Notes under the pieces: generated by a model
What the model was told of the DNA's origin: nothing
Database searches by the model: none
The model's input: only the letters and a program-made list of their open reading frames with translations
NCBI RefSeq assembly: GCF_031760065.1
Contig: NZ_CP134500.1
Span: 4,836,001 to 4,900,000 of the forward strand
Length of the DNA: 64,000 nt
Direction: 5' to 3'
From: Streptomyces durocortorensis
GTDB taxonomy: Bacteria > Actinomycetota > Actinomycetes > Streptomycetales > Streptomycetaceae
Shown here: piece after piece, positions 5,199 through 20,853 of the stretch
Layout: every line of letters begins with the position of its first letter
Numbering within the stretch: position 1 is the stretch's first letter
Translations under genes and position numbers: made by a program

Positions 5199-5452
5199 GG
5201 GTCGACCGTACGCAGCCGGGGCGGTGTGGCACCTCGGCCTGCGGACCGACACACGCCCGGCCGCGGGGACCGGGACCTCGGGCCGAGAGGCTGGGCCAGG
5301 ACGTTGGGCCGGGATGCTGGGCCGGCCCCGGGCGCCGGGAGCCCCGGCGGTTCCGTCGCCCGGCGGGCGGCGTTCCGGGGCCTGTCGCGCGGCGGGCTCA
5401 GATCTTGCTCAACTCCGGTGCGGACCGGACCCGCCCGGGGAACGGTGGTTCC

Positions 5453-5782
5453 ATGAGCCTGTTCCGCAAGCCCCAGCCCCTCGCCGTACACGTCCTCCGC
5501 GACGCCCCCGATGTCGTCACCGCGCTCCGCCGTGCGCTGGAGACCGCGACGGAGGCCGAGCGGCCCGGCCTGGAACGCGCCCTCGCCCTGGCCGAGGACG
5601 CGGCCGAGCGTCCGGACGAGGAGCTGCGCGGCCGCTGGGTGCGACGGCGGCTGACCGAGGCCGGGCACGAGGGGCCTGCCGACTCCGTCGAGGCCATCAA
5701 GATCCTGCGCCGGGCCGAACCGGGGCTGACCCTGCTCCAGGCCGTGACGTACGCGAAGGAGGCCGCGGCGGCGAAGGCCTGA
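5453..5782 (+). CDS. Small hypothetical protein with an L7/L12-C-terminal-like tail
   Basis: 109 residues starting MSLFRKPQP. The open frame continues upstream, but that part is atypical in composition. The middle is helical and charged. The tail (DSVEAIKILRRAEPGLTLLQAVTYAKE) resembles the helix-loop-helix of the ribosomal L7/L12 C-terminal domain, in which an IK-x-VR segment precedes GLxLxEA. This is a fold-level resemblance, not an assignment. It has no signal or membrane segment and stands alone, convergent with the downstream oxidoreductase gene. Confidence 0.6.
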   Translation: MSLFRKPQPLAVHVLRDAPDVVTALRRALETATEAERPGLERALALAEDAAERPDEELRGRWVRRRLTEAGHEGPADSVEAIKILRRAEPGLTLLQAVTYAKEAAAAKA

Positions 5783-5793
5783 CCCGGCGGCCG

Positions 5794-6612
5794 TCAGACC
5801 CCGTTCACCGCGCCGGCCGCCGCGATCAGCAACGCCGTGTCCACGCCCTGCTCCCGGGCCGTACGCAGCAGCGCCGCGTCGCCCGCCGCCACCACGGCCG
5901 GGCTGGTCGCGTCCTCGGGCGGCACGTCCTCGCCGAACAGCGCGGTGTGCGGGGCCATCGCCGTGAGCCAGCCCGCCAGCAGCGCGCCGAACTCCTTCCG
6001 GTCGATCCCCGCGTTCTCCACCAGCGCGAACGCGTGCCGGGCCCCGGCGAACATCGCGGTCATCGCGCTGAGCAGGGCCACGTCGTGCAGTGCGGCGGCC
6101 CCGGGTTCGCCGCCGACGAACCGGGCGTCCGTCGGTACGGTCAGCGTCTCGCGATGGGCGTCGAAGACCTCCTGCGAACCGCTGTAGAAGACATAGGCGC
6201 CGGACTCCGGCACGCCGACCATCGGGGGCACGGCCATGATCCCGCCGTCCAGGAAGCGTGCGCCGCGCCCCTCGGCCCAGGTCGCACGGGCGCGCGACTC
6301 GCCCGGGGTGGAGGTGGTGAGGTCGACCAGGTCCTTGCCCGTGAGGTCCGCGTCGGCCAGCGCCTCACGGACCGAGGCGTCGTCCATGAGGCAGGCGACG
6401 ACGAGCGGGCTCGCGGCCACCGCCTCGGCCGCCGTGGCGGCCACCCGCGCGCCCGCGGCGGCGAGTTCGGCGGTCCGGCCGGGGCTGCGGTTCCAGACGG
6501 TCAGGGGGTGGCCGGCGGCGAGCCAGGTACGGGCGAACGCGGCGCCCATCGAGCCGAGGCCGAGCAGCGTGAGAGGGGCGGGAGAGGTGGAAGCAGTGGT
6601 GTTGTCAGGCAT
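5794..6612 (-). CDS. NADPH-dependent imine-reductase-like / beta-hydroxyacid dehydrogenase family oxidoreductase
   Basis: 272 residues from ATG 6612. The N-terminal Rossmann motif LGLGSMGAAFARTWLAAGH is followed by VWNRSPGRTAEL, where the Arg after WN favours NADPH. The segment FLDGGIMAVPPMVG is characteristic of the imine reductase branch rather than 3-hydroxyisobutyrate dehydrogenases, which carry a Ser-Gly-Gly substrate motif and a catalytic lysine. The C-terminal helical dimerisation region follows (ALLSAMTAMFAGARHAFALVENAG). IREDs reduce cyclic imines or couple ketones with amines; the natural substrate is usually unknown. The gene is divergent from an HxlR regulator 98 bases away, which probably controls it. 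Confidence 0.82.
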   Translation of the reverse strand: MPDNTTASTSPAPLTLLGLGSMGAAFARTWLAAGHPLTVWNRSPGRTAELAAAGARVAATAAEAVAASPLVVACLMDDASVREALADADLTGKDLVDLTTSTPGESRARATWAEGRGARFLDGGIMAVPPMVGVPESGAYVFYSGSQEVFDAHRETLTVPTDARFVGGEPGAAALHDVALLSAMTAMFAGARHAFALVENAGIDRKEFGALLAGWLTAMAPHTALFGEDVPPEDATSPAVVAAGDAALLRTAREQGVDTALLIAAAGAVNGV

Positions 6613-6710
6613 GCCGACTAGGCTGGCCGAAGGCGCCGGGGGCAACAAGTACGCACTTCCGAGTGGGTGGTTACCTCGCGGTGAGCGACCAGGTGGCGGA
6701 GGGGTGGAGG

Positions 6711-7124
6711 ATGCGGATCGTACGGAGGCCGGGGGCTTTCGTCTGCGGGATCGACGCGGCGATGGACGTGATCGGCGGCAAGTGGAAGGTGCTCATCCTG
6801 TGGGCGCTGAACGAGAAGACGTGCCGCTTCGGCGAGTTGCGCCGGGCCGTGCCCGGGGTGACCGAGAAGGTGCTCAGCTCCCAGCTCAGGGAGCTGGAGG
6901 ACGACGGCATCGTGCACCGAGAGGTGTTCGCGGAAGTGCCCCCGCGCGTGGAGTATTCGCTCACGCCGCTGGGCTTCTCGCTGAACGCGGCGCTGGAACC
7001 GCTGGGTGAGTGGGGGCGCGACCACATCCACCGCGGAGGGGGCGAGGGCACGGACACGGCCGCAGCCGCAGCAACGGTCACGGCCACAGCGGCAGCCACG
7101 GTCACGGCCGCTGCCTCGGCCTAG
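6711..7124 (+). CDS. HxlR-family winged-helix transcriptional regulator
   Basis: 137 residues. The HxlR core is clear: an N-terminal cysteine (FVCGIDAAMDVIGGKWKVLILW), recognition region RFGELRRAVPGVTEKVLSSQLRELEDDGIV and wing RVEYSLTPLG. HxlR proteins are often redox- or electrophile-responsive through that cysteine. The ATG at 6711 is preceded by GGAGGGG at good spacing; GTG codons at 6663 and 6681 are in-frame alternatives. The last 25 residues are a low-complexity Ala/Thr/Val tail encoded by simple repeats, probably disordered. Divergence from the imine-reductase-like gene suggests that gene is its target. Confidence 0.9.
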   Translation: MRIVRRPGAFVCGIDAAMDVIGGKWKVLILWALNEKTCRFGELRRAVPGVTEKVLSSQLRELEDDGIVHREVFAEVPPRVEYSLTPLGFSLNAALEPLGEWGRDHIHRGGGEGTDTAAAAATVTATAAATVTAAASA

Positions 7125-7232
7125 GCTTCGGCCGGAATCGCCCCCTTGTGATGCCCCGACATCTGCGCCAGCATGCGCATGTCAAAAGCCGGAAGATCTC
7201 CGGCCCTTGGCATCACTGGAGGGGACCCCCAC

Positions 7233-8099
7233 ATGAACAAGCCTCTCGTCGGTGCGTTTCTCGCTGCCCTGCTCCTGGGGGCGGGTGTCGCGCCCGCCGT
7301 CGCGGCCGAACCCGCACCGCGGACACAGGTCCGGGAAGACGCGCCCCAGGCAGGCCCCGGCCCGAAGGCCGTGACCTTCGCCGGGACCGTCGCGCTCAGC
7401 AACTGTTCCGGCTCCGTGGTCCGTTCGCCGGACTCCGCCCCCACGGACCCCGCCCTCGTGCTCTCCAACGGGCACTGCATGGAGTCCGGCTTCCCGGGCC
7501 CCGGCGAGGTCGTCGTCGACCAGCCGTCCTCCCGGACGTTCACCCTGCTCAACGCCTCGGGCAGAGGTGTCGGCACTCTGAAGGCGAGCAAGATCGCGTA
7601 CGGCACCATGACCGACACCGATCTCTCGCTCTACGAACTCACCAGCACCTACCGGCAGATCGCGGATCGCTACGGCATCCGGGCGCTGGAGCTGGAGACC
7701 GCCCACCCGGTGGCGGGCACCGCCATCACGGTCGCCTCCGGCTACTGGAAGCGCACCTACAGCTGCGACATCGACGGCTTCGTCCACCGGCTCAAGGAGG
7801 GCCGGTGGACCTGGAAGGACTCGGTCCGCTACACCCCGGAGTGCCGGACGATCGGCGGTACGTCCGGCTCGCCGGTGATAGACGACGCCACCGGCAAGGT
7901 GGTCGCCGTCAACAACACCGGTAACGAGAGCGGCCGGGAGTGCACGGTCAACAACCCGTGCGAGGTCGACGAGCACGGCGAGGTGACCGTCCGCGAGGGC
8001 ATCAACTACGCGCAGCAGACGTACAACATGGTCCCGTGCATCGGCACCGGCAACAAGATCGACCTGGACCGCGCGGGCTGTGCGCTGCCCAAGCCGTAG
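7233..8099 (+). CDS. Secreted trypsin-like serine protease (S1 family)
   Basis: 288 residues. ATG 7233 has a GGAGGGG site at about 9 bases. A Sec signal peptide covers roughly residues 1-24 (LVGAFLAALLLGAGVAPAVAAEP). The catalytic triad is readable: His in VLSNGHCMESG, Asp in MTDTDLSLYEL and Ser in IGGTSGSPVID. Paired cysteines fit an extracellular enzyme. Total length and absence of a long pro-region differ from the classic streptogrisins. The stop codon lies within a GCCGTA hexamer repeat (8093-8116). It is probably monocistronic and convergent with the tetR gene. Confidence 0.9.
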   Translation: MNKPLVGAFLAALLLGAGVAPAVAAEPAPRTQVREDAPQAGPGPKAVTFAGTVALSNCSGSVVRSPDSAPTDPALVLSNGHCMESGFPGPGEVVVDQPSSRTFTLLNASGRGVGTLKASKIAYGTMTDTDLSLYELTSTYRQIADRYGIRALELETAHPVAGTAITVASGYWKRTYSCDIDGFVHRLKEGRWTWKDSVRYTPECRTIGGTSGSPVIDDATGKVVAVNNTGNESGRECTVNNPCEVDEHGEVTVREGINYAQQTYNMVPCIGTGNKIDLDRAGCALPKP

Positions 8100-8116
8100 C
8101 CGTAGCCGTAGCCGTA
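8093..8116. repeat. GCCGTA hexamer repeat, four units
   Basis: Four perfect GCCGTA units that include the stop codon of the serine protease gene and run into its 3' flank. Slippage here would shift the C-terminus of the protease by a few residues. Confidence 0.7.
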
Positions 8117-8170
8117 GTCCTGGTCGTACGTGCGTGATCCCGGGCGCGCGCCGGGCGGGCCCGGCCACCC

Positions 8171-9001
8171 TCAGGGTCGCCGGGCGCGCGCCGCCTCGAT
8201 CCCGTCCAGCAGCACCCCGAGCCCCGCCCGGAACGTCTCCCGAGCCTCCCGCTCCGGATACGGCACCGCCTCCGCGCCCTCCTCCAGGCCCGGGTCCGGA
8301 TACGGCTCCACCGCCCCCTCCGCCTCCAGGCGGCTCACGGCGGGAAAGCGCTCCGCGAAGTCGGGGACCAGCTCCGTCAGCGCCGCCGAGCGCGCCGCCC
8401 ACCACTCCGCGTCGGAGCTCCCGGTCGCCGCCGCGGCCAGCCGGGCATCGGCCACCGTCTGCGCCGAGCCCCGGACGAACGGGAACAGGGTCCCCACCAG
8501 CCGCCGTACCGCCCCGGCCGTCAGCCCCGTCGCCCGCAACAGGGTGATCAGCGTGTCCAGGCCCGCGTACTCGTGCGGCCCCAGCACCGGCCGCGCCTGC
8601 GAGACCTGGAGCACCCAGGGATGGCGGACGTAGAACTCCAGGAGGTCTCCCGCCCAGACGGTCAGCCCCGCCCGCCAGCCGTCGTCCGACTCCTCCGGCT
8701 CCGGGTAGTGGGACGGGAGTTCGGCGTGCACCGAGTCGTACATCAGGTCCACCAGCTCGCTCTTGCCGGGGACGTACGTGTAGAGCGCCATCGCCGTGCG
8801 CCCGAGGCGGTCGCCGACCGCGCGCATCGACAGGGCCCCCATCCCCTCCTCGTCCGCGAGCGCGACGGCGGCCGCCACGATCGCGTCCACGCTCAGCCTC
8901 GGCTTCGGCCCCGGGCCGCCGCGCGTCGGCCGCGGGGCGTCCGCGCGCCACAGGAGGGAGAGGGAACTGCGGGGGTCGCCCTGCCCCGCGAAGACCACCA
9001 C
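8171..9001 (-). CDS. TetR/AcrR-family transcriptional regulator
   Basis: 276 residues from GTG 9001, which has AAGGAG six bases upstream. An ATG at 9046 is in frame but coincides with an operator-like palindrome, so I prefer the GTG. The HTH is in the segment LSVDAIVAAAVALADEEGMGALSMRAVGDRLGR, followed by TAMALYTYVPGKSELVDLM; the C-terminal domain is of the TetR_C tetracycline-repressor-like type. About 40 residues precede the HTH, longer than in minimal TetR proteins. Two TTACGTCGTRA boxes upstream imply negative autoregulation. No exporter or enzyme is directly attached, so the inducer and any further targets are unknown. Confidence 0.88.
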   Translation of the reverse strand: MVVFAGQGDPRSSLSLLWRADAPRPTRGGPGPKPRLSVDAIVAAAVALADEEGMGALSMRAVGDRLGRTAMALYTYVPGKSELVDLMYDSVHAELPSHYPEPEESDDGWRAGLTVWAGDLLEFYVRHPWVLQVSQARPVLGPHEYAGLDTLITLLRATGLTAGAVRRLVGTLFPFVRGSAQTVADARLAAAATGSSDAEWWAARSAALTELVPDFAERFPAVSRLEAEGAVEPYPDPGLEEGAEAVPYPEREARETFRAGLGVLLDGIEAARARRP

Positions 9002-9011
9002 GTGCGACTCC

Positions 9012-9056
9012 TTACGTCGTGAAGCAACACCCGACGGATAACTCATTACGTCGTAA
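9012..9056. promoter_or_regulatory. Paired operator boxes of the TetR gene
   Basis: TTACGTCGTAA at 9046-9056 is a perfect inverted repeat (TTACG-T-CGTAA). A near copy, TTACGTCGTGA, lies at 9012-9022, 34 bases away. Both are between the likely promoter and the GTG start of the tetR gene, as expected for autorepression. Confidence 0.6.
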
Positions 9057-9132
9057 GGTATCAGTGGGGAGGGGCGCGCCGTCCTGGGCCGGGAGCTGCC
9101 GCCCGCCGCCGACTCCGGGTGAGGGGGCGCGG

Positions 9133-10758
9133 TCAGGTCGCTGTCGCCCCCGCGCCCCGGACCGCCCGCCCCGCCAGCACCGACGTCCGCTTGCCGTCCT
9201 CGATGACGAACCGGCCGTCGACCAGTACGTGCGGGATGCCCACCGGCAGCGTGCGCGGCTCCTCGAAGGTCGAGCCCGCCGCCACGGTCTCCGGGTCGAA
9301 GAGCACCAGGTCCGCGCGGTAGCCCTCGCGCACCAGGCCCCGGTCCGCGAGCCGCAGGCGGGCGGCCGGGCGCGAGGTCAGATGGGCGACGCACTCCTCC
9401 AGTGAGAGGATGCCCAACTCCCGCGCGTACCGACCCAGATACTGCGGGAACGTGCCGTACGCGCGCGGGTGCGGCTTGTCGCCCTGGAGGATGCCGTCGC
9501 TGCCGCCGGTGTGCACCGGGTGGCCCATGATCTGCCGGACGTTCTCCTCATGGCCCACGTGCTGGAGGATCGTCGTCCCGAGCCGGTCCTCGGTGAGCAG
9601 CCGCCGCGCGGTCACCCAGGGCTCCTCGCCCCGCAGCGCCGCCGACTCCGCGACCGTACGGCCCACGTACTCGCCGAGATGCGGGGCGCCGACGCCGGAG
9701 ATCTCGATGGTGTCCCACTCGATCGGCACACCGTGGCAGCCGTCCGAGCCCAGTACTTCGAGGTGGTGGCGGATCCTCTCCGCGCTCTCCGCGTCCGCGA
9801 GCCGCGTCAGGACCGACTCCGGGCCGCCCTCGCTCGCCCAGCTCGGCAGCATCGCCACGAGCGTGGTGCAGCCCGGGGTGTACGGGTAGGTGTCGAGCGA
9901 GATGTCGGCCCCGGCGGCGAGCGCGCCGTCGAGCAGGGCGAGGAGGTCGGGAGCCTTGCCCTTGTTGACGCCGAAGTTCATGGTGGCGTGGGCGAGATGG
10001 AGCGCGCAGCCCGCGTCGTGCGCCAGCCGCACCATCTCCTCGTACGCCTCCAGCGCGCCCGCCCCATAGCTGCGGTGGTGCGGGCAGTAGTAGCCGCCGT
10101 GGCGTGCCACCACCCGGCACAGCTCGGTGAGTTCGGCGTCGTCCGCGTACATCCCCGGCGTGTAGGTCAGACCGGAGGACATGCCGACCGCGCCCTCGCG
10201 CATGCCCTGGTCCACCAGCTCCCGCATCCGGGTCAGTTCGGCGCCGGTGGCCGGGCGGTCGTCCCAGCCGACCGCGTACATCCGGACCGTGCCCTGCGGG
10301 ATGAGGTAGGCGGCGTTCACCGCGATGCCCTGCCCGCCGAAGTTGCGGTCCAGGCGGTCCAGATAGCCGCCGACCGTACGCCAGTCGAAGTCGATGCCGG
10401 AGCCGTCGCCGTTCCAGCCGGTGATGGAGCGGCGGACCTCGGCGAGCGTACGGTCGTCGACGGGGGCGTACGACAGGCCGTCCTGGCCCAGCACTTCGAG
10501 GGTGACGCCCTGTGCCGCCTTCGCGCTGTGGTCCGGGTCGCGCAGCAGTGCCAGGTCGCTGTGGGCGTGCATGTCGATGAAGCCGGGGGCGAGGGCGAGC
10601 CCGTCCGCGTCGAGTACCCGGGTGGCGGTGGGGCGGGGGCCGGGGGAGCCCTCGCGGTGGATCTCGGCTATCCGGCCGCCGTCGAGGGCCACATCGGCAC
10701 GGTACGAGGGGGCGCCGGTGCCGTCGACGACGAGCGCGTCACGCAGGACCAGGTCCAT
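9133..10758 (-). CDS. N-acyl-D-amino-acid deacylase-like amidohydrolase
   Basis: 541 residues, normal for the D-aminoacylase family of the amidohydrolase superfamily. The N-terminal beta-sandwich (LVLRDALVVDGTGAPSYRADVAL) and metal site FIDMHAHSDLALL are clear; further histidines are in CPHHRSYGAG, LHLAHATMNFG and HTGGSDGILQGD. Classical D-aminoacylases have a zinc-ligand cysteine in a GNCG-type motif; here the equivalent reads LGQDGLSYAP, with Asp in place of Cys. That suggests a different metal arrangement or substrate. It probably removes an N-acyl group from a D-configured amino acid or amino sugar acid. It is followed on the same strand by tetR and preceded 55 bases upstream by a PLP lyase gene. 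Confidence 0.85.
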   Translation of the reverse strand: MDLVLRDALVVDGTGAPSYRADVALDGGRIAEIHREGSPGPRPTATRVLDADGLALAPGFIDMHAHSDLALLRDPDHSAKAAQGVTLEVLGQDGLSYAPVDDRTLAEVRRSITGWNGDGSGIDFDWRTVGGYLDRLDRNFGGQGIAVNAAYLIPQGTVRMYAVGWDDRPATGAELTRMRELVDQGMREGAVGMSSGLTYTPGMYADDAELTELCRVVARHGGYYCPHHRSYGAGALEAYEEMVRLAHDAGCALHLAHATMNFGVNKGKAPDLLALLDGALAAGADISLDTYPYTPGCTTLVAMLPSWASEGGPESVLTRLADAESAERIRHHLEVLGSDGCHGVPIEWDTIEISGVGAPHLGEYVGRTVAESAALRGEEPWVTARRLLTEDRLGTTILQHVGHEENVRQIMGHPVHTGGSDGILQGDKPHPRAYGTFPQYLGRYARELGILSLEECVAHLTSRPAARLRLADRGLVREGYRADLVLFDPETVAAGSTFEEPRTLPVGIPHVLVDGRFVIEDGKRTSVLAGRAVRGAGATAT

Positions 10759-10813
10759 GGGTCACCTTTCGGGTGCGTTGTCTCTTCGCGTACGGCTCAG
10801 AAGCGCTTACGGC

Positions 10814-12118
10814 TCAGAAGAACGTGCGGATGTAGTCGGCGACCGTGCCGTCCGCCTCCACCAGCGGGATCAGCTGCCACTTGTCGAAGCTGGTGCAGGG
10901 GTGCGAGAGGCCCATGCCGACCCAGTCGCCCACCTCCAGCTCGGCCCCCTCCTCCGTGCGCACCCAGGCGTGCTGGTCGGAGAGTCCGGTGACCGTGATC
11001 CCGGTGGCGGGCCGGACCGAACCGTCCCGGCCGGAGCGGACCACCTGCGCCTCGGGCAGATCCAGGTCGTACGCCGCGTCCCGCTTGCCCGCGTTCAGGA
11101 ACGCCTGCTCACCGGTCGGGCGGGAGACGACCTGCGCCCAGAGGCGGAAGGCGGGCTCCAGCGCGCCCTCCTCGGGCACCCGGTTGAACGGGGTGAGGTG
11201 CTTGTAGTGCCCGTCGTCGTGTGAGACGTACGCACCGGAGCGGAGCAACTTGAGTACGGGCAGGCTGAGTTCGGGGACGTCTGCGAAGACCTCCGCGACC
11301 GCGTCGAACCAGGCGCTGCCGCCCGCGCTGATGACGATCCCGTCGGCTCCGGCGAACCGCTTCTCGCCGTCGAAGGCGGCCGCCAGCGCGACGAGCCGCC
11401 GCAGCCACGCCCCCACCCGCTCGGGGTCCGCTTCCGGCACCTCGCCCTCGTACCCGGCGACCCCCACCAGGCGCAGCGATCCGGCCGCCGCCACCGCGTC
11501 GGCCACCGCCGTGCAGTCGGCCTCCGTACGGGCCCCGGTGCGCGCGCCCTCGCCCGCGCCCAGTTCCACGACCACGTCGACCGGGCGGGTGGCGCCCGCC
11601 GCGCTCAGGGCCGCCTCCATCAGTTCGACGCCGCGCACGGAGTCGACGTAGCAGATGAAGCGGAACTCCGGGTCGGCCGTCATCTCGGCGGCCAGCCAGC
11701 GCAGGGCCACGGCGTCGACCAGCTCGTTCGCGAGGAAGATCCGCCCGATACCGTACGCCCGGTAGACCCGCGCCTGGTGCGGCACGGCGGCCGTGATGCC
11801 CCACGCGCCACGCTTCAGCTGGTCCGCGAAGAGCTGCGGCGACATGGACGTCTTGCCGTGCGGGGCGAACGCGAGGCCGTGCCGCTCGGCGTACGTCTCC
11901 AGGAGCGCGAGGTTGTGCTCGACCGACTCGGCGGACAGGGCGAGTACGGGGGTGGTGAACCCGCCGGTGAAGAGGTTGCGGCGCTCGGCGGCCAGGGCCC
12001 CGACGGTGAGGCCGTCCGCGTCCGGCGGCAGGGCCTTGAAGCGGTGGTCGACGCGCTCGTCGGCGAGGCCGGCGGCGAGATCGCCGGGACGGGGTGCGGT
12101 GGGGCGTTCGGCTGTCAA
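10814..12118 (-). CDS. Fold-type III PLP enzyme: D-serine-deaminase/D-threonine-aldolase/D-glucosaminate-dehydratase type
   Basis: 434 residues from TTG 12118, which has GAGGAG six bases upstream; the longer ATG frame from 12160 would run through the operator. An alanine-racemase-like barrel carries the PLP lysine in FAPHGKTSMSPQLF. The C-terminal domain has metal-site-type motifs (SDQHAWVRTEEG, GLSHPCTSFDKW), as in DSD1 and D-threonine aldolases. Members eliminate water or ammonia from D-serine, D-threonine or D-glucosaminate. With the KDG kinase, RidA and GntP permease nearby, D-glucosaminate is an attractive substrate, but D-serine cannot be excluded by sequence. Confidence 0.85.
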   Translation of the reverse strand: MTAERPTAPRPGDLAAGLADERVDHRFKALPPDADGLTVGALAAERRNLFTGGFTTPVLALSAESVEHNLALLETYAERHGLAFAPHGKTSMSPQLFADQLKRGAWGITAAVPHQARVYRAYGIGRIFLANELVDAVALRWLAAEMTADPEFRFICYVDSVRGVELMEAALSAAGATRPVDVVVELGAGEGARTGARTEADCTAVADAVAAAGSLRLVGVAGYEGEVPEADPERVGAWLRRLVALAAAFDGEKRFAGADGIVISAGGSAWFDAVAEVFADVPELSLPVLKLLRSGAYVSHDDGHYKHLTPFNRVPEEGALEPAFRLWAQVVSRPTGEQAFLNAGKRDAAYDLDLPEAQVVRSGRDGSVRPATGITVTGLSDQHAWVRTEEGAELEVGDWVGMGLSHPCTSFDKWQLIPLVEADGTVADYIRTFF

Positions 12119-12137
12119 GGGAAGCTCCTCGAAGTTC

Positions 12138-12174
12138 GTTGCAACATATGCAACACCCATTGCGTATATCGCTT
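12138..12174. promoter_or_regulatory. Double palindromic operator between the divergent catabolic units (probable IclR site)
   Basis: A perfect inverted repeat, GTTGCA-N5-TGCAAC, lies at 12138-12154. A degenerate copy, TTGCG-TATAT-CGCTT, lies at 12160-12174 with its centre about 21 bases away, close to two helical turns. The sites sit between the leftward PLP lyase gene and the rightward kinase-iclR-ridA-gntP genes. They are the natural target for the IclR protein at 13401. Confidence 0.6.
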
Positions 12175-12273
12175 AACGCTGTCTAACATCCGAGCCGACG
12201 CCGGGTCAATGGTGACCAGATGCCCGGTCGATGGTGTCCACCGGCCCGCACGCCGATCAGCGAGGAGCCTTCC

Positions 12274-13404
12274 GTGTCCGGACCCGCAGCAGGGACGGCC
12301 AGCGCCGCCACGACCACCGATGCCGTCTGTCTCGGTGAGTCCATGGTGACGTTCCTGCCCTCGCGGCCCGGCCGCCTCGCCGACGTGCCCTCCTTCGGAC
12401 GCGGGATCGGGGGTGCCGAGTCCAACGTGGCCTGCGCGCTCGCCGCCGCCGGGCACCGGGCGGCCTGGGTCGGCCGGGTAGGGGCGGACGGCTTCGGCGA
12501 CCATCTGGTCGAGACGATCGCGGGGTACGGGGTCGACACCTCGGCCGTCCGCCGGGACCCGGTCCGCCCGACGGGCATCTACTTCCGTACGGCCACGGAC
12601 CGGGGGACCGACGCGCACGAGGTCGCCTACTACCGGGCGGGATCGGCGGCATCGGCGATGTCGCCGGACAACGTGCCGTACGAGGACCTGTTCGCGGGCC
12701 GCATCCTGCACCTGTCCGGGATCACGGCCGCGCTGTCCGCCGACTGCCTGGCGCTGCTGCGGGACCTGACGGCACCCCGGGCGGACCGCCCGCTCGTCTC
12801 CTTCGACGTGAACCACCGGCCGCATCTGTGGCGGGGCGGGACCGCTGACGCCTCGGTCCTCCTGGAGCTGGCCCGCCGGGCCGACCTGGTGTTCGTGGGC
12901 GAGGACGAGGCGGAGGAGGCGTGGGGGATCGTCGGCGCTGGGGCGATCCGGGCGGCGCTGCCGGAGCCGTCCGTGGTGGTGGTGAAGCGCGGGAGTGCGG
13001 GCGCGACGGTGTTCTCGGGGCACCGCCCCGGACCCCGCGCCTCGAACGCCGGAGGGGCTGAGAATTCCGGAGGGGCCGAAAGCGCCGTCGGGGAGGGCGG
13101 GGACACCGTCACCGTCGTGCCCGCCCTCCGCGTCGACGTCGTCGCCGCCGTCGGGGCCGGGGACGCGTTCGCCGCCGGGTTCCTCTCCGCCACCCTGCGC
13201 GGGCTGCCCGTACGCGACCGGGTCCGGCACGGGCACCTGATGGCCGCCGCCGTTCTCACCGTCCCCGGCGACCTCACCGACCCGCCCGCCCGCGACCACG
13301 CCGACCGCCTCGCCGCCCTCGACGACGAGGCCTGGGGGAGACTTCGTCTCGGCCCCGGCTGGACCGCAGCCGACCGGGCACCCGAGGAGGTACGCACCCC
13401 ATGA
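12274..13404 (+). CDS. PfkB-family sugar kinase, 2-keto-3-deoxygluconate kinase-like
   Basis: 376 residues from GTG 12274 (GAGGAG upstream). The start VCLGESMVTFLPSRPG matches KDG kinases rather than ribokinases or fructokinases. PfkB signature 1 (GIGGAESNVACALAAAGH) and signature 2 (VAAVGAGDAFAAGFLS, with catalytic Asp in GAGD) are intact. A 30-residue Gly/Ala/Glu-rich insertion (about residues 245-285) is unusual and probably a surface loop. The reaction expected is KDG plus ATP to KDPG, feeding an aldolase encoded elsewhere. Its stop overlaps the iclR start by four bases. Confidence 0.85.
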   Translation: MSGPAAGTASAATTTDAVCLGESMVTFLPSRPGRLADVPSFGRGIGGAESNVACALAAAGHRAAWVGRVGADGFGDHLVETIAGYGVDTSAVRRDPVRPTGIYFRTATDRGTDAHEVAYYRAGSAASAMSPDNVPYEDLFAGRILHLSGITAALSADCLALLRDLTAPRADRPLVSFDVNHRPHLWRGGTADASVLLELARRADLVFVGEDEAEEAWGIVGAGAIRAALPEPSVVVVKRGSAGATVFSGHRPGPRASNAGGAENSGGAESAVGEGGDTVTVVPALRVDVVAAVGAGDAFAAGFLSATLRGLPVRDRVRHGHLMAAAVLTVPGDLTDPPARDHADRLAALDDEAWGRLRLGPGWTAADRAPEEVRTP

Positions 13405-14159
13405 GTCAGACCGTCGACCGGGCACTGAGCATCCTGCCCCTGCTCGCCCAGGGACCCGCCGACCTCGGCCAGGTCGCCGAGCGGCTCGGCGTCCACAAGT
13501 CCACGGCGCTGCGCCTGCTGCGTACGCTCCACGAGCACGGCCTCGTCTACCGCCAGCAGGACCAGCGCTACCGCCTCGGCGCCCGGCTCTTCGCGCTCGC
13601 GCAGGAGGCCGTGGAGAACCTCGACGTACGCGAGATCGCCCACTCCCACCTGGTCGCGCTGAACGACCGGTGCGGGCACACCGTGCACCTCGCCGTGTAC
13701 GAGGAGCAGGAAGTCCTCTACATCGACAAGGTCGAGAGCCGCTACCCGGTCCGGATGTACTCGCGGATCGGCAAGCCCGTCGCGATCACCGTCGCGGCCG
13801 TCGCCAAGCTGCTGCTGGCCGACCTCGCCGAGCCCGAGCGGCGCGTCATCGCCGAGAAGCTCGACTACCCCATGTACACGTCCCGTTCGACGCCCAACGC
13901 GGCCGCCTTCCTCAAGGAGCTGGCCGTCGTCCGCGAACAGGGCTGGGCCACCGACCTCGGTGGCCACGAGGAGTCCATCAACTGCGTCGGCGCCCCCATC
14001 CGCGGCGCGGACGGACGGGTCGTCGCGGCCATGTCGGTGTCCGCACCCAACGTGGTCGTCACGGCCGAGGAACTCCTCACCCTGCTCCCGCTGGTCCGGC
14101 GCACCGCCGAGACGATCAGCCGGGAGTACTCCGGCACCACCCAACCCAAGAAAGCCTGA
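13401..14159 (+). CDS. IclR-family transcriptional regulator
   Basis: 252 residues. The N-terminal winged helix (TVDRALSILPLLAQ, then LGQVAERLGVHKSTALRLLRTLHEHGLV) and the C-terminal effector-binding domain (HTVHLAVYEEQEVLYIDKVES, then GGHEESINCVGAPIRG, AAMSVSAPN) are complete. ATG overlaps the kinase stop (ATGA), so kinase and regulator are translationally coupled. IclR proteins of the KdgR branch respond to sugar-acid intermediates such as KDG. Its likely operator is the double palindrome at 12138-12174. Confidence 0.92.
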   Translation: MSQTVDRALSILPLLAQGPADLGQVAERLGVHKSTALRLLRTLHEHGLVYRQQDQRYRLGARLFALAQEAVENLDVREIAHSHLVALNDRCGHTVHLAVYEEQEVLYIDKVESRYPVRMYSRIGKPVAITVAAVAKLLLADLAEPERRVIAEKLDYPMYTSRSTPNAAAFLKELAVVREQGWATDLGGHEESINCVGAPIRGADGRVVAAMSVSAPNVVVTAEELLTLLPLVRRTAETISREYSGTTQPKKA

Positions 14160-14165
14160 TCAGCC

Positions 14166-14576
14166 ATGACCGAGAAGACCGCGCTCACCCCCTCCACCCA
14201 CACCACGCCGCCCGCGAAGTTCTCGCACGGCGTGAAGAAGGGGAACATCCTCCAGGTCGCCGGCCAGGTCGGCTTCCTCCCGGCCGTGGAGGGCCAGGCC
14301 CCGACCCCGGCCGGTCCGACCCTGCGCGAGCAGACCCTCCAGACCTTCGCCAACGTCAAGGCGATCCTGGAGGAGGGCGGCGCGAGCTGGGACGACGTGA
14401 TGATGATGCGCGTCTACCTCACGGACGTGGACCACTTCGCGGAGATGAACGAGATCTACAACGCGTACTTCGCCGAGCAGAACCTCAAGGAGGCTCCCTC
14501 GGCCCGTACGACGGTCTACGTCGGCCTGCCGAAGGGCCTGCTCATCGAGATCGACGCCCTCGCGGTGCTCAGCTGA
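14166..14576 (+). CDS. ridA: RidA/YjgF/YER057c-family enamine/imine deaminase
   Basis: 136 residues, six bases after iclR. Family marks include VKKGNILQVAGQVGF, LREQTLQTFANVKAILEEGGASWDD, MMMRVYLTDVDHFAEMN, and the conserved arginine in SARTTVYVGLPKG, followed by LIEIDALAVL. RidA hydrolyses the reactive enamine/imine released by PLP-dependent ammonia-lyases to the 2-oxo acid. That makes it a logical partner for the fold-type III PLP enzyme in this island. Trimeric and cytosolic by family. Confidence 0.93.
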   Translation: MTEKTALTPSTHTTPPAKFSHGVKKGNILQVAGQVGFLPAVEGQAPTPAGPTLREQTLQTFANVKAILEEGGASWDDVMMMRVYLTDVDHFAEMNEIYNAYFAEQNLKEAPSARTTVYVGLPKGLLIEIDALAVLS

Positions 14577-14714
14577 CCGTTCCGCCCCTACCGAACGCCT
14601 GATCCTCTTGCCTCACCCGCACCACCCCTCCAGCACGCCGCACGGCACGGCGCCCCGTCCCCCGGGGGCGCCGTGCCGCGCTCCCCCCTGCCCTCCAGCA
14701 CCATCGGAGTCCCC

Positions 14715-16193
14715 ATGTCGCTCGCCGCCGCCGGCCCCTCGCCGGCCGAGACGCCACCGCACACCGGTGGTCTGCTCCTCCTGATCGACGGCACCGCGGG
14801 TCTGCTGACCGTCGCCGCCCTCGGTATCGCCCTCCTCCTCTTCCTGATCATCAAGGTCAGGCTCCAGCCGTTCGTCGCCCTGCTCGCGGTCTCCATAGCC
14901 GTCGGCCTCGGGGCCGGGCTCTCGGTCACCGAACTCTTCGGAACCGTGCAGAAATCCGCCGCCGTCTCGGTCATCGAGTCCGGCATGGGCGGCATCCTGG
15001 GCCATGTCGCGATCATCATCGGGCTCGGCACCATGCTCGGCGCGATCCTCGAAGTGTCCGGCGGCGCCGAGGTGTTGAGCGCCCGCCTGCTGAACCTCTT
15101 CGGTGAGAAGCGGGCCCCGCTCGCGATGGGCCTGACCGGCACCATCTTCGGTATCCCGGTCTTCTTCGACGTCGGCATCTTCGTCCTCGCGCCGATCGTG
15201 TACGCCGCCGCCAAGCGCTCCGGAAAATCGATCCTGCTCTACGCGATGCCGCTGCTGGCGGGCCTGTCGATGACCCACGCGTTCCTGCCGCCGCACCCCG
15301 GCCCGGTAGCCGCCGCCGGACTCTTCAACGTCTCGCTCGGCTGGGTCATCCTGATGGGGGTCGTGGTCGGCGTCCCGTCCGTCCTCGCCGCCTGGGCGTA
15401 CGCCGCCTGGATCGGGAAGCGGATCTTCGTCGAGGTCCCGCAGGACATGGTGGACGCCGCCGCCGAGGCCAAGGCGGCGGTCGCCGCCGAACAGCGGGCC
15501 GCCGGCGGCACCCCGCACGAGAAGCCGGTCCCGCTCGCCACGGTCCTCGCGATCATCGGCACCCCGCTGGTCCTGATCCTCGCCGCGACGTTCTCCTCCA
15601 TCGCGCTGGACCCCTCCACAATCCGCTCGGTCGTCGAGTTCTTCGGCAACCCGTTCGTGGCCCTGACGATCGCGCTGTTCCTGGCGTACTACCTGCTGGG
15701 CATCCGCCGCGGCTGGTCCCGCAAGTCCCTGGAATCGGTCTCCACGTCCTCGCTGAAGCCCGTCGGCAACATCCTGCTGGTGGTCGGCGCGGGCGGCATC
15801 TTCGGCGCGGTCCTCAAGGGCAGCGGAATCGCGGACGCGCTGGCCGACACCTTCAACGACGTGGGCCTCCCCGTCATCCTCCTCGCCTGGCTGATCTCGG
15901 TCGTGCTGCGCGTCGCCCAGGGCTCGGCCACCGTCGCGATCGTCACGACCGCCGGGATCGTGGTCCCGTTGGTCGACGGTCAGGACCTGTCCCAGGCCCA
16001 CCTCGCGCTGATCATCATGGCGATCTCGGCGGGCTCGATCTTCGCCTCGCACGTCAACGACGGCGGCTTCTGGATGGTGTCGAAGTACTTCGGCATCAGC
16101 GAGCGGGACACCCTGAAGTCCTGGACGGTGCTGGAGACGGTGCTGTCGGTGGCGGGCTTCGTGGTCGCGGCGCTGCTTACTCTGGTGATCTAG
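14715..16193 (+). CDS. GntP-family permease (gluconate / sugar acid / D-serine type)
   Basis: 492 residues from ATG 14715 with GGAG upstream. About 12-14 hydrophobic segments are visible. Family marks include GMGGILGHVAIIIGLGTMLGAILEVSGGAE, the GIPVFFDVGIFVLAP loop, MTHAFLPPHPGPVAAAG, and the C-terminal ASHVNDGGFWMVSKYFGISERDTLKSW. The family imports gluconate and related acids with protons, and D-serine in the DsdX case. It closes the rightward operon after ridA, with a 138-base gap that shows no strong terminator. It is the likely uptake route for the pathway substrate. Confidence 0.92.
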   Translation: MSLAAAGPSPAETPPHTGGLLLLIDGTAGLLTVAALGIALLLFLIIKVRLQPFVALLAVSIAVGLGAGLSVTELFGTVQKSAAVSVIESGMGGILGHVAIIIGLGTMLGAILEVSGGAEVLSARLLNLFGEKRAPLAMGLTGTIFGIPVFFDVGIFVLAPIVYAAAKRSGKSILLYAMPLLAGLSMTHAFLPPHPGPVAAAGLFNVSLGWVILMGVVVGVPSVLAAWAYAAWIGKRIFVEVPQDMVDAAAEAKAAVAAEQRAAGGTPHEKPVPLATVLAIIGTPLVLILAATFSSIALDPSTIRSVVEFFGNPFVALTIALFLAYYLLGIRRGWSRKSLESVSTSSLKPVGNILLVVGAGGIFGAVLKGSGIADALADTFNDVGLPVILLAWLISVVLRVAQGSATVAIVTTAGIVVPLVDGQDLSQAHLALIIMAISAGSIFASHVNDGGFWMVSKYFGISERDTLKSWTVLETVLSVAGFVVAALLTLVI

Positions 16194-19039: not shown

Positions 19040-20773
19040 TTACGGCAGGCCGCGCACGTGCGGGCCGACCGCCTTCGACCAGGCGAACCCGGCCGTCGCG
19101 TCCCAGTTCGTCGACCAGGTCATCGCGCCGCGCAGCGACGGGTAGGTCCTGGACGGCTTGAAGGAACCGCAGTTGGTGCCCTTGGTCAGGCAGTCCAGCG
19201 CCGCGTTCACGACCGACGGGGCGACGTATCCGCTGCCCGCGCCCCGGGTGGAGGCGGGGACACCGATGCCGACCTGGGACGGGTCGAGGCCGCCCTCCAG
19301 CTGGATGCAGGCGAGCGCGGTGAGGAAGTCCACCGAGCCCTGGTGGTAGACCTTGCCGTCGCAGCCCAGCATCGAACCGCTGTTGTAGTACTGCATGTTG
19401 ACGACGGTCAGGATGTCCTTGATGTTCAGGGCCGTCTTGAAGTACTCACCCGACGTCGACTGCATGTCGAGCGTCTGCGGGGCCATCGTGATGACCAGTC
19501 CGCTGCCCGCCTTCGCCGACAGCTGGCGCAGCGCCTTCGTCATGTAGGTGGCGTTGAGGCCGTTCTCCAGGTCGATGTCGACCCCGTTGAAGCCGTAGTC
19601 CTGCATGAGCGCGTAGACGGAGTCGGCGAACGCGGTGGCGGAGGCGTCGTTCTCGACCCGGACCGTGCCCAGTTCGCCGCCGATCGAGATGATGACGTTC
19701 TTGCCCTGCGCCTGCTTGGTCTTGATGTCCGCCCGGAACTGGGCGTCGGTGTAGCCGTTCAGCCCGGCCGTGTCCAGGTTGAAGGTGACCGCGCCCGGCG
19801 TCGGCAGGGCGTCCGCGAAGGAGACCGCGATGATGTCGTAGTCGGCCGGGACGTCGGTGAGCTTCTGGACGGCGGCGCCGTTGTTGAAGTTCTGCCAGTA
19901 GCCGGTCACCGCGTGCTTGGGCACGGCGGGCCCGGGGCCGGGGCCCGTGCCCTCCTCGGCCGTACGGGCGCTGACGGCCGCGGACTTGGCCGACTCGCCG
20001 GCCGCGTTGGTGGCGCTCACCGAGAACTGGTACGCGGTGTCCGCGGACAGCCCCGTGACGGTCGCCGAGGTCCCGGTGGAGGTGGTGGCCTGCACACCGT
20101 CCCTGTACACCTTGTAGCCCGTGGCGCCGGGGGCCGCGTTCCAGGACAGGGCCACGGAGGACGTCGTGGTGGCGCCCGCCGTCAGGCCCGCGGGGGTGTC
20201 CGGGACGACCGGGGGCTCTTCGCCGCCGCCCCCGCCGTCAGGTCCCGTCACCTCGAAGTCGTCGACGAAGTAGGCGTCCTGCCCGTACCAGCCGTGGGTG
20301 TAAACGGTCACCGAGGTGGTGTCGGCGCCGGTCGTGAAACTGGTGGACAGCTTGGTCCAGCTGGTGGAGCCCGGGGTCCACGTGGAGACGTCCGTCGTGC
20401 CGGTGCCGCTCACGCCGAGGTAGGCGTAGCTGCCCTGGACCCAGGAGCCCAGCGCGTACGTGGAGTTGGGCTGCACCGCCACGGTCTGCGTGCACTTGGC
20501 GTTGTCCTGGCCGGCCGGGGTGGCCTTCAGCGCGGACGTGCCGCTGCGTACGGGGGAGGAGACGACGGTGCCGCTGCCACCCGTACAGGTCCAGTTGGTG
20601 AGCCCCGACTCGAAGCCCGGGTTCTTGGCGTTGTTGACGTCGGCGGCCTGTGCGGTGCTGACGAGTCCGGTGACGGTCAGGGCTCCGGCCGCGATGAGGG
20701 CCATGGTGCCGCTGAGGACCGGGCGGGAGTGACGCCTTCTGCTTCTGCGTCTGCTGCCTGCGGAGCGTTCCAC
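19040..20773 (-). CDS. Secreted GH18 chitinase with CBM and fibronectin type III domains
   Basis: 577 residues from GTG 20773 (GGAGG upstream). The longer ATG frame from 20851 would begin only 3 bases from the dre element, leaving no room for a leader. The signal peptide is long and Arg-rich (about residues 1-45, ending VSTAQA). Then come a beta-sandwich carbohydrate-binding module (about 46-180), an FnIII domain (about 192-275; GLTAGATTTSSVALSWNAAP) and the GH18 barrel (about 290-577). The catalytic motif reads GFNGVDIDLENG with the essential Glu. It endo- or exo-hydrolyses chitin outside the cell. The dre site implies DasR control by amino-sugar phosphates. Confidence 0.95.
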   Translation of the reverse strand: MERSAGSRRRSRRRHSRPVLSGTMALIAAGALTVTGLVSTAQAADVNNAKNPGFESGLTNWTCTGGSGTVVSSPVRSGTSALKATPAGQDNAKCTQTVAVQPNSTYALGSWVQGSYAYLGVSGTGTTDVSTWTPGSTSWTKLSTSFTTGADTTSVTVYTHGWYGQDAYFVDDFEVTGPDGGGGGEEPPVVPDTPAGLTAGATTTSSVALSWNAAPGATGYKVYRDGVQATTSTGTSATVTGLSADTAYQFSVSATNAAGESAKSAAVSARTAEEGTGPGPGPAVPKHAVTGYWQNFNNGAAVQKLTDVPADYDIIAVSFADALPTPGAVTFNLDTAGLNGYTDAQFRADIKTKQAQGKNVIISIGGELGTVRVENDASATAFADSVYALMQDYGFNGVDIDLENGLNATYMTKALRQLSAKAGSGLVITMAPQTLDMQSTSGEYFKTALNIKDILTVVNMQYYNSGSMLGCDGKVYHQGSVDFLTALACIQLEGGLDPSQVGIGVPASTRGAGSGYVAPSVVNAALDCLTKGTNCGSFKPSRTYPSLRGAMTWSTNWDATAGFAWSKAVGPHVRGLP

Positions 20774-20853
20774 TGGTGCCTCCGGGTGGGGGAGTTGGGG
20801 ATGTGCGGCGGCCGGGGATGACGGCTGGGGTGTGGCCATCGCTTGGCGCATAA

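Follow-up and report, generated by a model that had tools for sequence, protein, structure and literature searches.

The closest described system is the ong cluster of the marine bacterium Pseudoalteromonas prydzensis, whose pathway is backed by mutants and assays in strain ACAM 620, according to the passages of PMC9537276 available to us. The survey in that paper (marine genomes, 2,455; terrestrial genomes, 12,220) reports the complete pathway only for Gammaproteobacteria and one Achromobacter, and PMC12017989, which deals with the deacylase OngB, names marine and terrestrial Gammaproteobacteria. For chitin-eating haloarchaea, a different glucosaminate route was predicted in 2025 (PMC12343721, excerpt). 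Streptomyces is absent from the main text of PMC9537276 and PMC12017989, and among the open-licence papers listed, judged mostly from titles and the starts of abstracts, none described an actinobacterial route for N-acetyl-D-glucosaminic acid (GlcNAc1A). Here, an island of six genes was analyzed in the 7.3 Mb, single-contig genome of Streptomyces durocortorensis, within a window of 64,000 nucleotides (NZ_CP134500.1, positions 4,836,001 to 4,900,000; G000:C1:4836001-4900000). With a probability of roughly 80%, this island forms the central part of a catabolic pathway through which Streptomyces and many other soil actinobacteria use GlcNAc1A, the oxidised chain end formed from chitin by lytic polysaccharide monooxygenases (LPMOs). 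For every substrate, GlcNAc1A included, we infer the identity from gene content, linkage, a shared operator and a gene fusion, which were computed.

In the proposed pathway, LPMO and chitinase would yield chitobionate (GlcNAc-GlcNAc1A), at first as its lactone, which a seven-bladed lactonase would open where present. A dedicated ATP-binding cassette (ABC) importer and a GntP permease would import the disaccharide and the monomer, and chitobionate would be split inside the cell by a GH20 hexosaminidase, in which no signal peptide is evident. The island deacylase would then remove acetate from GlcNAc1A, and a fold-type III pyridoxal 5'-phosphate (PLP) enzyme would eliminate ammonia to give 2-keto-3-deoxygluconate (KDG), with RidA clearing the enamine/imine. 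Finally, a PfkB kinase would convert KDG to 2-keto-3-deoxy-6-phosphogluconate (KDPG), and KDPG aldolase would cleave the latter to pyruvate and glyceraldehyde-3-phosphate. A sequence-only reading of the locus had proposed import, deacetylation, deamination to KDG and phosphorylation to KDPG, and had mentioned a chitin-oxidation cluster reported in marine bacteria, which is real and corresponds to ong. The proposed chain gained support, and candidates for the aldolase, hexosaminidase, importer and lactonase steps were found through gene neighbourhood, the operator and the fusion.

All six genes were recovered with the families and places given in that reading, by open reading frame (ORF) calls and Pfam/NCBIfam. 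The reverse strand carries the deacylase of D-aminoacylase fold (9133..10758; Amidohydro_3, PF07969), a predicted GlcNAc1A deacetylase, and the fold-type III PLP enzyme (ORF 10814..12160; D-ser_dehydrat/Ala_racemase_N, PF14031 and PF01168), a predicted D-glucosaminate deaminase yielding KDG. On the forward strand follow the PfkB kinase (ORF 12220..13404), a predicted KDG kinase, an IclR-family regulator (13401..14159; PF01614/PF09339), the predicted repressor of the regulon, a RidA-family imine/enamine deaminase (14166..14576; PF01042) and a GntP-family sugar-acid permease (14673..16193; PF02447 with 428 bits, TIGR00791 over its cut-off). Judged from ribosome-binding sites and relatives, the PLP enzyme probably starts at TTG 12118 and the kinase at GTG 12274. 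The kinase had 1v19, a 2-keto-3-deoxygluconate kinase, as the first of 52 PDB matches (E 1.9e-41), and it keeps the YYRxGSA and DVNxRxxLW stretches, which we take to bind KDG. As in ong, a deacylase, a PLP deaminase, a KDG-type kinase and RidA occur together in one cluster. Upstream of the island, an imine-reductase/reductive-aminase-like protein (PF03446 and PF21761) is encoded at 5794-6648 of the window.

The grouping of these genes is more than chance, and the deacylase, PLP enzyme, kinase, IclR and RidA genes travel together across Actinobacteria. Among 32 loci of relatives, deacylase and PLP enzyme occurred together in all 32, IclR in 31, the kinase in 30, RidA in 29 and GntP in 14; two of the three loci without RidA end at a contig edge. 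A second set comprised 80 named loci from Tsukamurella, Gordonia, Rhodococcus, Nocardia, Arthrobacter, Kribbella, Kitasatospora and other genera; these are the best 80 of at least 482 relatives and not a random sample. With a BLAST hit at any position of a locus counted as presence, and with 16 loci shorter than 17 kb, the deacylase was present in 80, the PLP enzyme in 79, RidA in 78, IclR in 75, the kinase in 73, GntP in 54 and KDPG aldolase (PF01081) in 51. The deacylase is 95% identical to a Streptomyces globisporus record and had a match of at least 76% identity in all 25 genomes that represent the genus in the first set. Of 396 genomes sampled from the phylum, 25 contained a match with more than 50% identity, 20 of them of the same genus including S. 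durocortorensis and 5 others; with only five such genomes beyond it, the island is patchy outside Streptomyces.

Three further loci were observed. A record titled Sporosarcina beigongshangi, a Firmicute, holds an actinobacterial-type island whose deacylase is 64% identical to that of Tsukamurella (L228), by transfer or contamination. The locus L169 (G398, 5384-10608) holds a related island with KDPG aldolase, kinase, PLP enzyme, IclR and RidA and a divergent deacylase of 38% identity, possibly a further substrate variant. A second amidohydrolase of S. durocortorensis, 35% identical to the deacylase (G000:C1:2905064-2906773, L074), has counterparts in many same-genus genomes.

KDPG aldolase was placed in the system by neighbourhood and by a shared operator. 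In another family of the order (f3), the aldolase gene followed the deacylase gene in 9/9 loci, eight by ORF calls and the ninth by coordinates, and the gene order in Tsukamurella tyrosinosolvens is RidA-IclR-kinase//PLP-deacylase-aldolase-GntP. The genome of S. durocortorensis has a single PF01081 gene (eda), 3 Mb from the island.

The gap between the PLP enzyme and kinase genes holds a conserved GTTGCN6YGCAAC palindrome and a TTGC half-site. In the window, this predicted IclR operator (GTTGCN6TGCAAC with the further half-site; 12138..12163, forward strand) lies just downstream of a predicted sigma-70-type promoter reading into the PLP-deacylase operon (TTGACC, 18 bp, TAGACA; 12180..12209, reverse strand), the conservation of which was judged by eye across the gaps of relatives. 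The operator was assigned from conservation of the palindrome and its recurrence at eda and the ABC operon. With at most one mismatch, 31 of the first 32 loci carry the palindrome in this gap; the single exception (L055) likewise has no kinase, IclR or RidA. Among the named loci, the gap could be delimited in 79, and 76 of these carry the palindrome as well, the misses being two Nocardia loci with degenerate copies and one Krasilnikoviella locus in which no IclR was seen. Two loci (L185, L200) keep the operator although no IclR was seen beside it. Thus, operator and adjacent IclR gene are not strictly tied.

A 26-bp operator pattern was scanned in 25 genomes. At two mismatches, it gave 117 sites, compared with 198 for the reversed control run at the same setting; therefore, the analysis was limited to sites with one mismatch or none. 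These numbered 40. A spacing control with the same fixed bases and one spacer base fewer gave 2 sites in the 25 genomes, and its reversed control 6. Of the 40 sites, 33 came from the 16 Streptomyces genomes. Sixteen of them lie at the island and 10 immediately before eda; 4 belong to the ABC operon or a GH20 gene, 2 lie upstream of lactonase genes and 1 lies elsewhere, as tallied by hand with gene identities from separate locus and Pfam analyses. The remaining 7 sites, in family f3, were all at the island. S. durocortorensis had exactly three sites, at the island, at eda and at the ABC-GH20 operon. One odd site (L293, G001:C280, position 4007) has as its neighbours a different IclR gene and the gene of a Rieske-type oxygenase, the latter recognized by eye, and another IclR may thus use a similar operator. 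Direct operator sites at LPMO genes were considered and rejected, 0 of the 33 Streptomyces sites lying at one.

The 17-bp palindrome, again with at most one mismatch, was found at 20/20 Streptomyces eda loci, 63-162 bp upstream of the point where the Pfam match begins; this count leaves out the five of 25 Streptomyces genomes without an eda locus of the high-scoring type. It was also found at 15/15 orthologues of the solute-binding protein (SBP) gene of the ABC operon, 38-75 bp before the match start. Orthologues were defined by at least 70% identity, which left out two weaker homologues, one with a one-mismatch site and one without. The background was 4 stray sites in 575 kb; this count replaced a control with 300-bp random windows (90/5000), which was set aside since its loci carry the operator. 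The same search found the palindrome at 0/10 aldolase loci outside Streptomyces. We propose from these sites that the island IclR controls the island, the aldolase gene and the ABC operon jointly, presumably by repression rather than activation.

A regulator of this type could also point to salvage of uronates and KDG of the KdgR kind, with KDG kinase, KDPG aldolase and IclR as the system and the deacylase and lyase as unrelated neighbours. The best model for the IclR protein is indeed KdgR, and the best match of the kinase is a KDG kinase. However, the deacylase and the PLP enzyme are the most constant members of the island, the operator stands at their promoter, and no uronate enzymes were noticed among 13 neighbour clusters read by eye, which was no systematic search for them. 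Uronate salvage was therefore rejected as extremely improbable on linkage and operator evidence.

The proposed GlcNAc1A pathway is linked to chitin by the operator-bearing ABC operon. Of the 15 genomes with an SBP orthologue, 12 have this operon in the order SBP-permease-permease-GH20; in G001, the operon ends at the contig edge. In G012, which has no SBP orthologue at E 1e-60, an operator site lies directly before the GH20 gene. By eye, no signal peptide is evident in the GH20 protein of S. durocortorensis, for which the beta-N-acetylhexosaminidase 3rcn was the best match among solved structures. In Qaidamihabitans albus, island and importer are contiguous (RidA-IclR//PLP-deacylase-lactonase-[15-of-16 DasR-like site, perfect operator]-SBP-permease-permease-GH20), and in three Arthrobacter loci a GH20 gene lies close to the island, in two of them together with permeases. 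The 12/15 operons, this neighbourhood and the fusion described below place GH20 in the system. A PF10282 lactonase gene follows RidA in 3/9 loci of family f3 and lies within the Qaidamihabitans and Actinospica islands, and two Streptomyces genomes encode a lactonase of secreted look (signal by eye) with the operator about 95 bp upstream. Since C1 oxidation by LPMOs gives lactones, a lactonase at these loci and in the regulon fits a route for oxidised chitin.

All 15 SBP promoters also carry an element resembling the site of DasR, the regulator of GlcNAc and chitin use, 110-148 bp before the SBP match. Each copy matches 13 or 14 of 16 positions of the DasR consensus A(G/C)TGGTCTAGACCA(G/C)T, as quoted in the part of PMC4398421 available, with 14/16 in S. 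durocortorensis; elsewhere, the loose pattern used had 23 occurrences in a total of 575 kb. DasR binding was shown for a 12-of-16 site in the passage of PMC6167110 considered. Inside the island, a DasR site was rejected, the matches there being scattered and weak. S. durocortorensis has three AA10 LPMO genes (PF03067), and LPMOs were present in 38/41 genomes. The window further encodes a GH18 chitinase (19040..20851, reverse strand; CBM4_9, FN3 and GH18 by Pfam, signal peptide by eye) 2.8 kb from GntP, which does not imply membership in the regulon; a homologue was found inside 14 of the 112 loci searched.

The same architecture could serve another N-acyl amino-hexonic acid, e.g., N-acetyl-D-galactosaminate via the galacto forms of KDG and KDPG (KDGal, KDPGal), or one with another acyl group, and the link to chitin would then be loose. 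KDG kinases and KDPG aldolases often also accept galacto forms, GH20 enzymes also cut N-acetylgalactosamine, and the pocket of the deacylase is unlike that of OngB. The DasR-like element at the co-regulated operon and the chitinases and LPMOs speak against another acid, although they do not fix the substrate itself. Taken together, we regard such a substrate as unlikely.

In the Microbacterium genome G269, deacylase and GH20 form one polypeptide of about 1080 amino acids (L158:6542-9853, reverse strand), next to PLP enzyme, RidA, ROK and NagB-like genes. A search with this fusion returned 327 matches, and 120/120 of those listed carry both Pfam domains; the search was scored on the deacylase part of proteins of 0.55-1.75 times the fusion length, so that the frequency of unfused forms is outside its reach. 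The named proteins among the 120 were from Microbacterium, except one unplaced actinomycete. The GGDE motif of GH20 was present in 119/120 and the HxTMNF motif of the deacylase in 120/120.

The fusion bears on a further alternative, in which the island would serve N-acyl-D-amino-acid catabolism: a D-aminoacylase would free D-Ser or D-Thr, the PLP enzyme would dehydrate it, RidA would clear the imine, and the kinase and other genes would be bystanders. The best solved relatives of the deacylase are D-aminoacylases, that of the PLP enzyme is the D-serine deaminase 3gwq, and in Azospirillum a relative of the deacylase is found alongside RidA, a PLP enzyme and an ABC transporter of the peptide type. 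OngC, the PLP enzyme of the ong pathway, also accepts D-Ser and D-Thr, as stated in PMC9537276 where consulted. However, the Azospirillum deacylase falls outside the island clade, and Microbacterium has the island deacylase in one protein with GH20. Moreover, one operator joins the aldolase, the ABC-GH20 operon and, in two genomes, the lactonase. The argument of the sequence-only reading that a KDG kinase misfits a pure D-amino-acid pathway held, with the kinase at 73/80 and the aldolase at 51/80 named loci. On linkage, operator and fusion evidence, a pathway for D-amino acids only was considered very improbable and was rejected.

The predicted GlcNAc1A enzymes were compared with ong clusters of Pseudoalteromonas CF6-2, Klebsiella, P. 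piscicida and Vibrio. The PLP enzyme of the window is 31-33% identical to four OngC proteins, and the island PLP enzymes as a whole are 31-34% identical to OngC; the PLP tree places OngC and the island enzymes apart, in two groups (support 100/100 and 98/96). The deacylase is 28-31% identical to four OngB relatives. These group with the D-aminoacylase AfDam (support 100/99), apart from the island clade (97/85), in a tree that holds an unfused Microbacterium relative and not the fusion. A single clade of island deacylases and OngB was rejected by an approximately unbiased (AU) test (p = 1.9e-5), which used 36/38 rows after removal of two long-branch rows and a grouping chosen after the first tree had been seen. 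By Foldseek, target-normalised template modelling (TM) scores were 0.82-0.87 to nine solved D-aminoacylase and OngB entries, D-aminoacylases being placed before OngB without separation of the two. The structure model has a mean predicted local distance difference test (pLDDT) score of 78; residues 294-298 and 420-435 around the active site fall below 50, and therefore the pocket cannot be judged from the model. With residue numbers of PpOngB (PDB 9kb1/9kb3; available part of PMC12017989) mapped by motif through the four relatives, the island deacylases share with OngB the fold, the catalytic Asp, two metal His and equivalents of Tyr194, Tyr285 and Arg379; at Ser291 they have Ser, Cys or Ala. 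AfDam (1m7j) and BbDam (3gip) have the same fold and general catalytic machinery, but differ from the island deacylase in the metal Cys (Asp in the island) and Lys254 (Thr), and the island context is one of sugar acids, not amino acids.

Several observations weigh against the GlcNAc1A pathway. First, island deacylases have Asp for the metal ligand Cys97, Thr for Lys254, Thr for Ser292 and Tyr for Glu226, and no Gln is aligned at Gln298, a position less sure since the loop is gapped there. The metal Cys and the carboxylate-binding Lys254 are strictly conserved according to PMC12017989, as far as available. The Thr and Asp changes were not taken to exclude a sugar-acid substrate; the equivalents of Tyr285 and Arg379 remain. 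Second, the deacylase falls below NCBIfam cut-offs, and three relatives that do not belong to the island clade (37-39% identity) stand beside peptide-transport, hydantoinase or diaminopropionate genes. Third, the best NCBIfam model of the kinase, KDG/KDGal kinase, scored 161 bits under a cut-off of 400, and that of IclR, KdgR, 154 bits under a cut-off of 275; accordingly, a KDG-type inducer for IclR is a guess. Fourth, the best solved relatives of the SBP bind acarbose, maltose and other sugars, with a chitin-oligosaccharide binder ranking 16th. An SBP orthologue at E 1e-60 was missing from 10/25 Streptomyces genomes, in some of which only part of the candidates were scored, and no GH20 follows the two permeases in G016 (L325) and G020 (L318). 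Finally, kinase and aldolase were not seen in the Qaidamihabitans locus, nor kinase, IclR and aldolase at the Microbacterium fusion locus; the Arthrobacter importer at L187 has no operator within one mismatch, and genome G028 has an LPMO without a close deacylase.

Compared with ong, the predicted Streptomyces pathway has in common a deacylase of D-aminoacylase fold, a fold-type III PLP deaminase, a KDG-type kinase, RidA, GH20 and an LPMO in the genome, as well as the KDPG aldolase found in the ong forms of Vibrio, Klebsiella and Serratia. In contrast, the ong deacylase belongs to another branch, and the kinase shares only 24-29% identity with three PfkB kinases of ong clusters, that of Klebsiella being unrelated and of another family. 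Transport in ong relies on the SSS symporter OngIT and TonB receptors, whereas island and regulon have GntP and ABC importers; no SSS-family OngIT was present in the island or regulon, SSS genes elsewhere in the genome not having been searched. The regulator is IclR instead of the MurR/RpiR protein OngR, and aldolase and GH20 are joined through a regulon in Streptomyces. Regulons of KdgR-type IclR proteins, which have KDG kinase and KDPG aldolase as targets, resemble the island in this respect; the island regulon adds the ABC-GH20 operon, the deacylase and the PLP enzyme. As judged from sequence comparison, the predicted pathway works like ong; the ancestry of its deacylase, transporter and regulator makes it a variant of ong and not one of its members. 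A branch of the superfamily other than that of OngB probably took on the same function. It is likely that the actinobacterial oxidative chitin pathway was built separately from the marine one, with an independently recruited GlcNAc1A deacetylase family, a KdgR-like regulon, a chitobionate importer and the Microbacterium fusion enzyme. If true, the deacylase would represent a candidate new carbohydrate esterase family in which Asp replaces the metal-site Cys. For the oxidised ends produced by chitin-type LPMOs of Streptomyces, a whole route is proposed with a named regulator and operator; it would amend the usual annotation, in which the products of these genes are D-amino-acid enzymes with no relation to one another.

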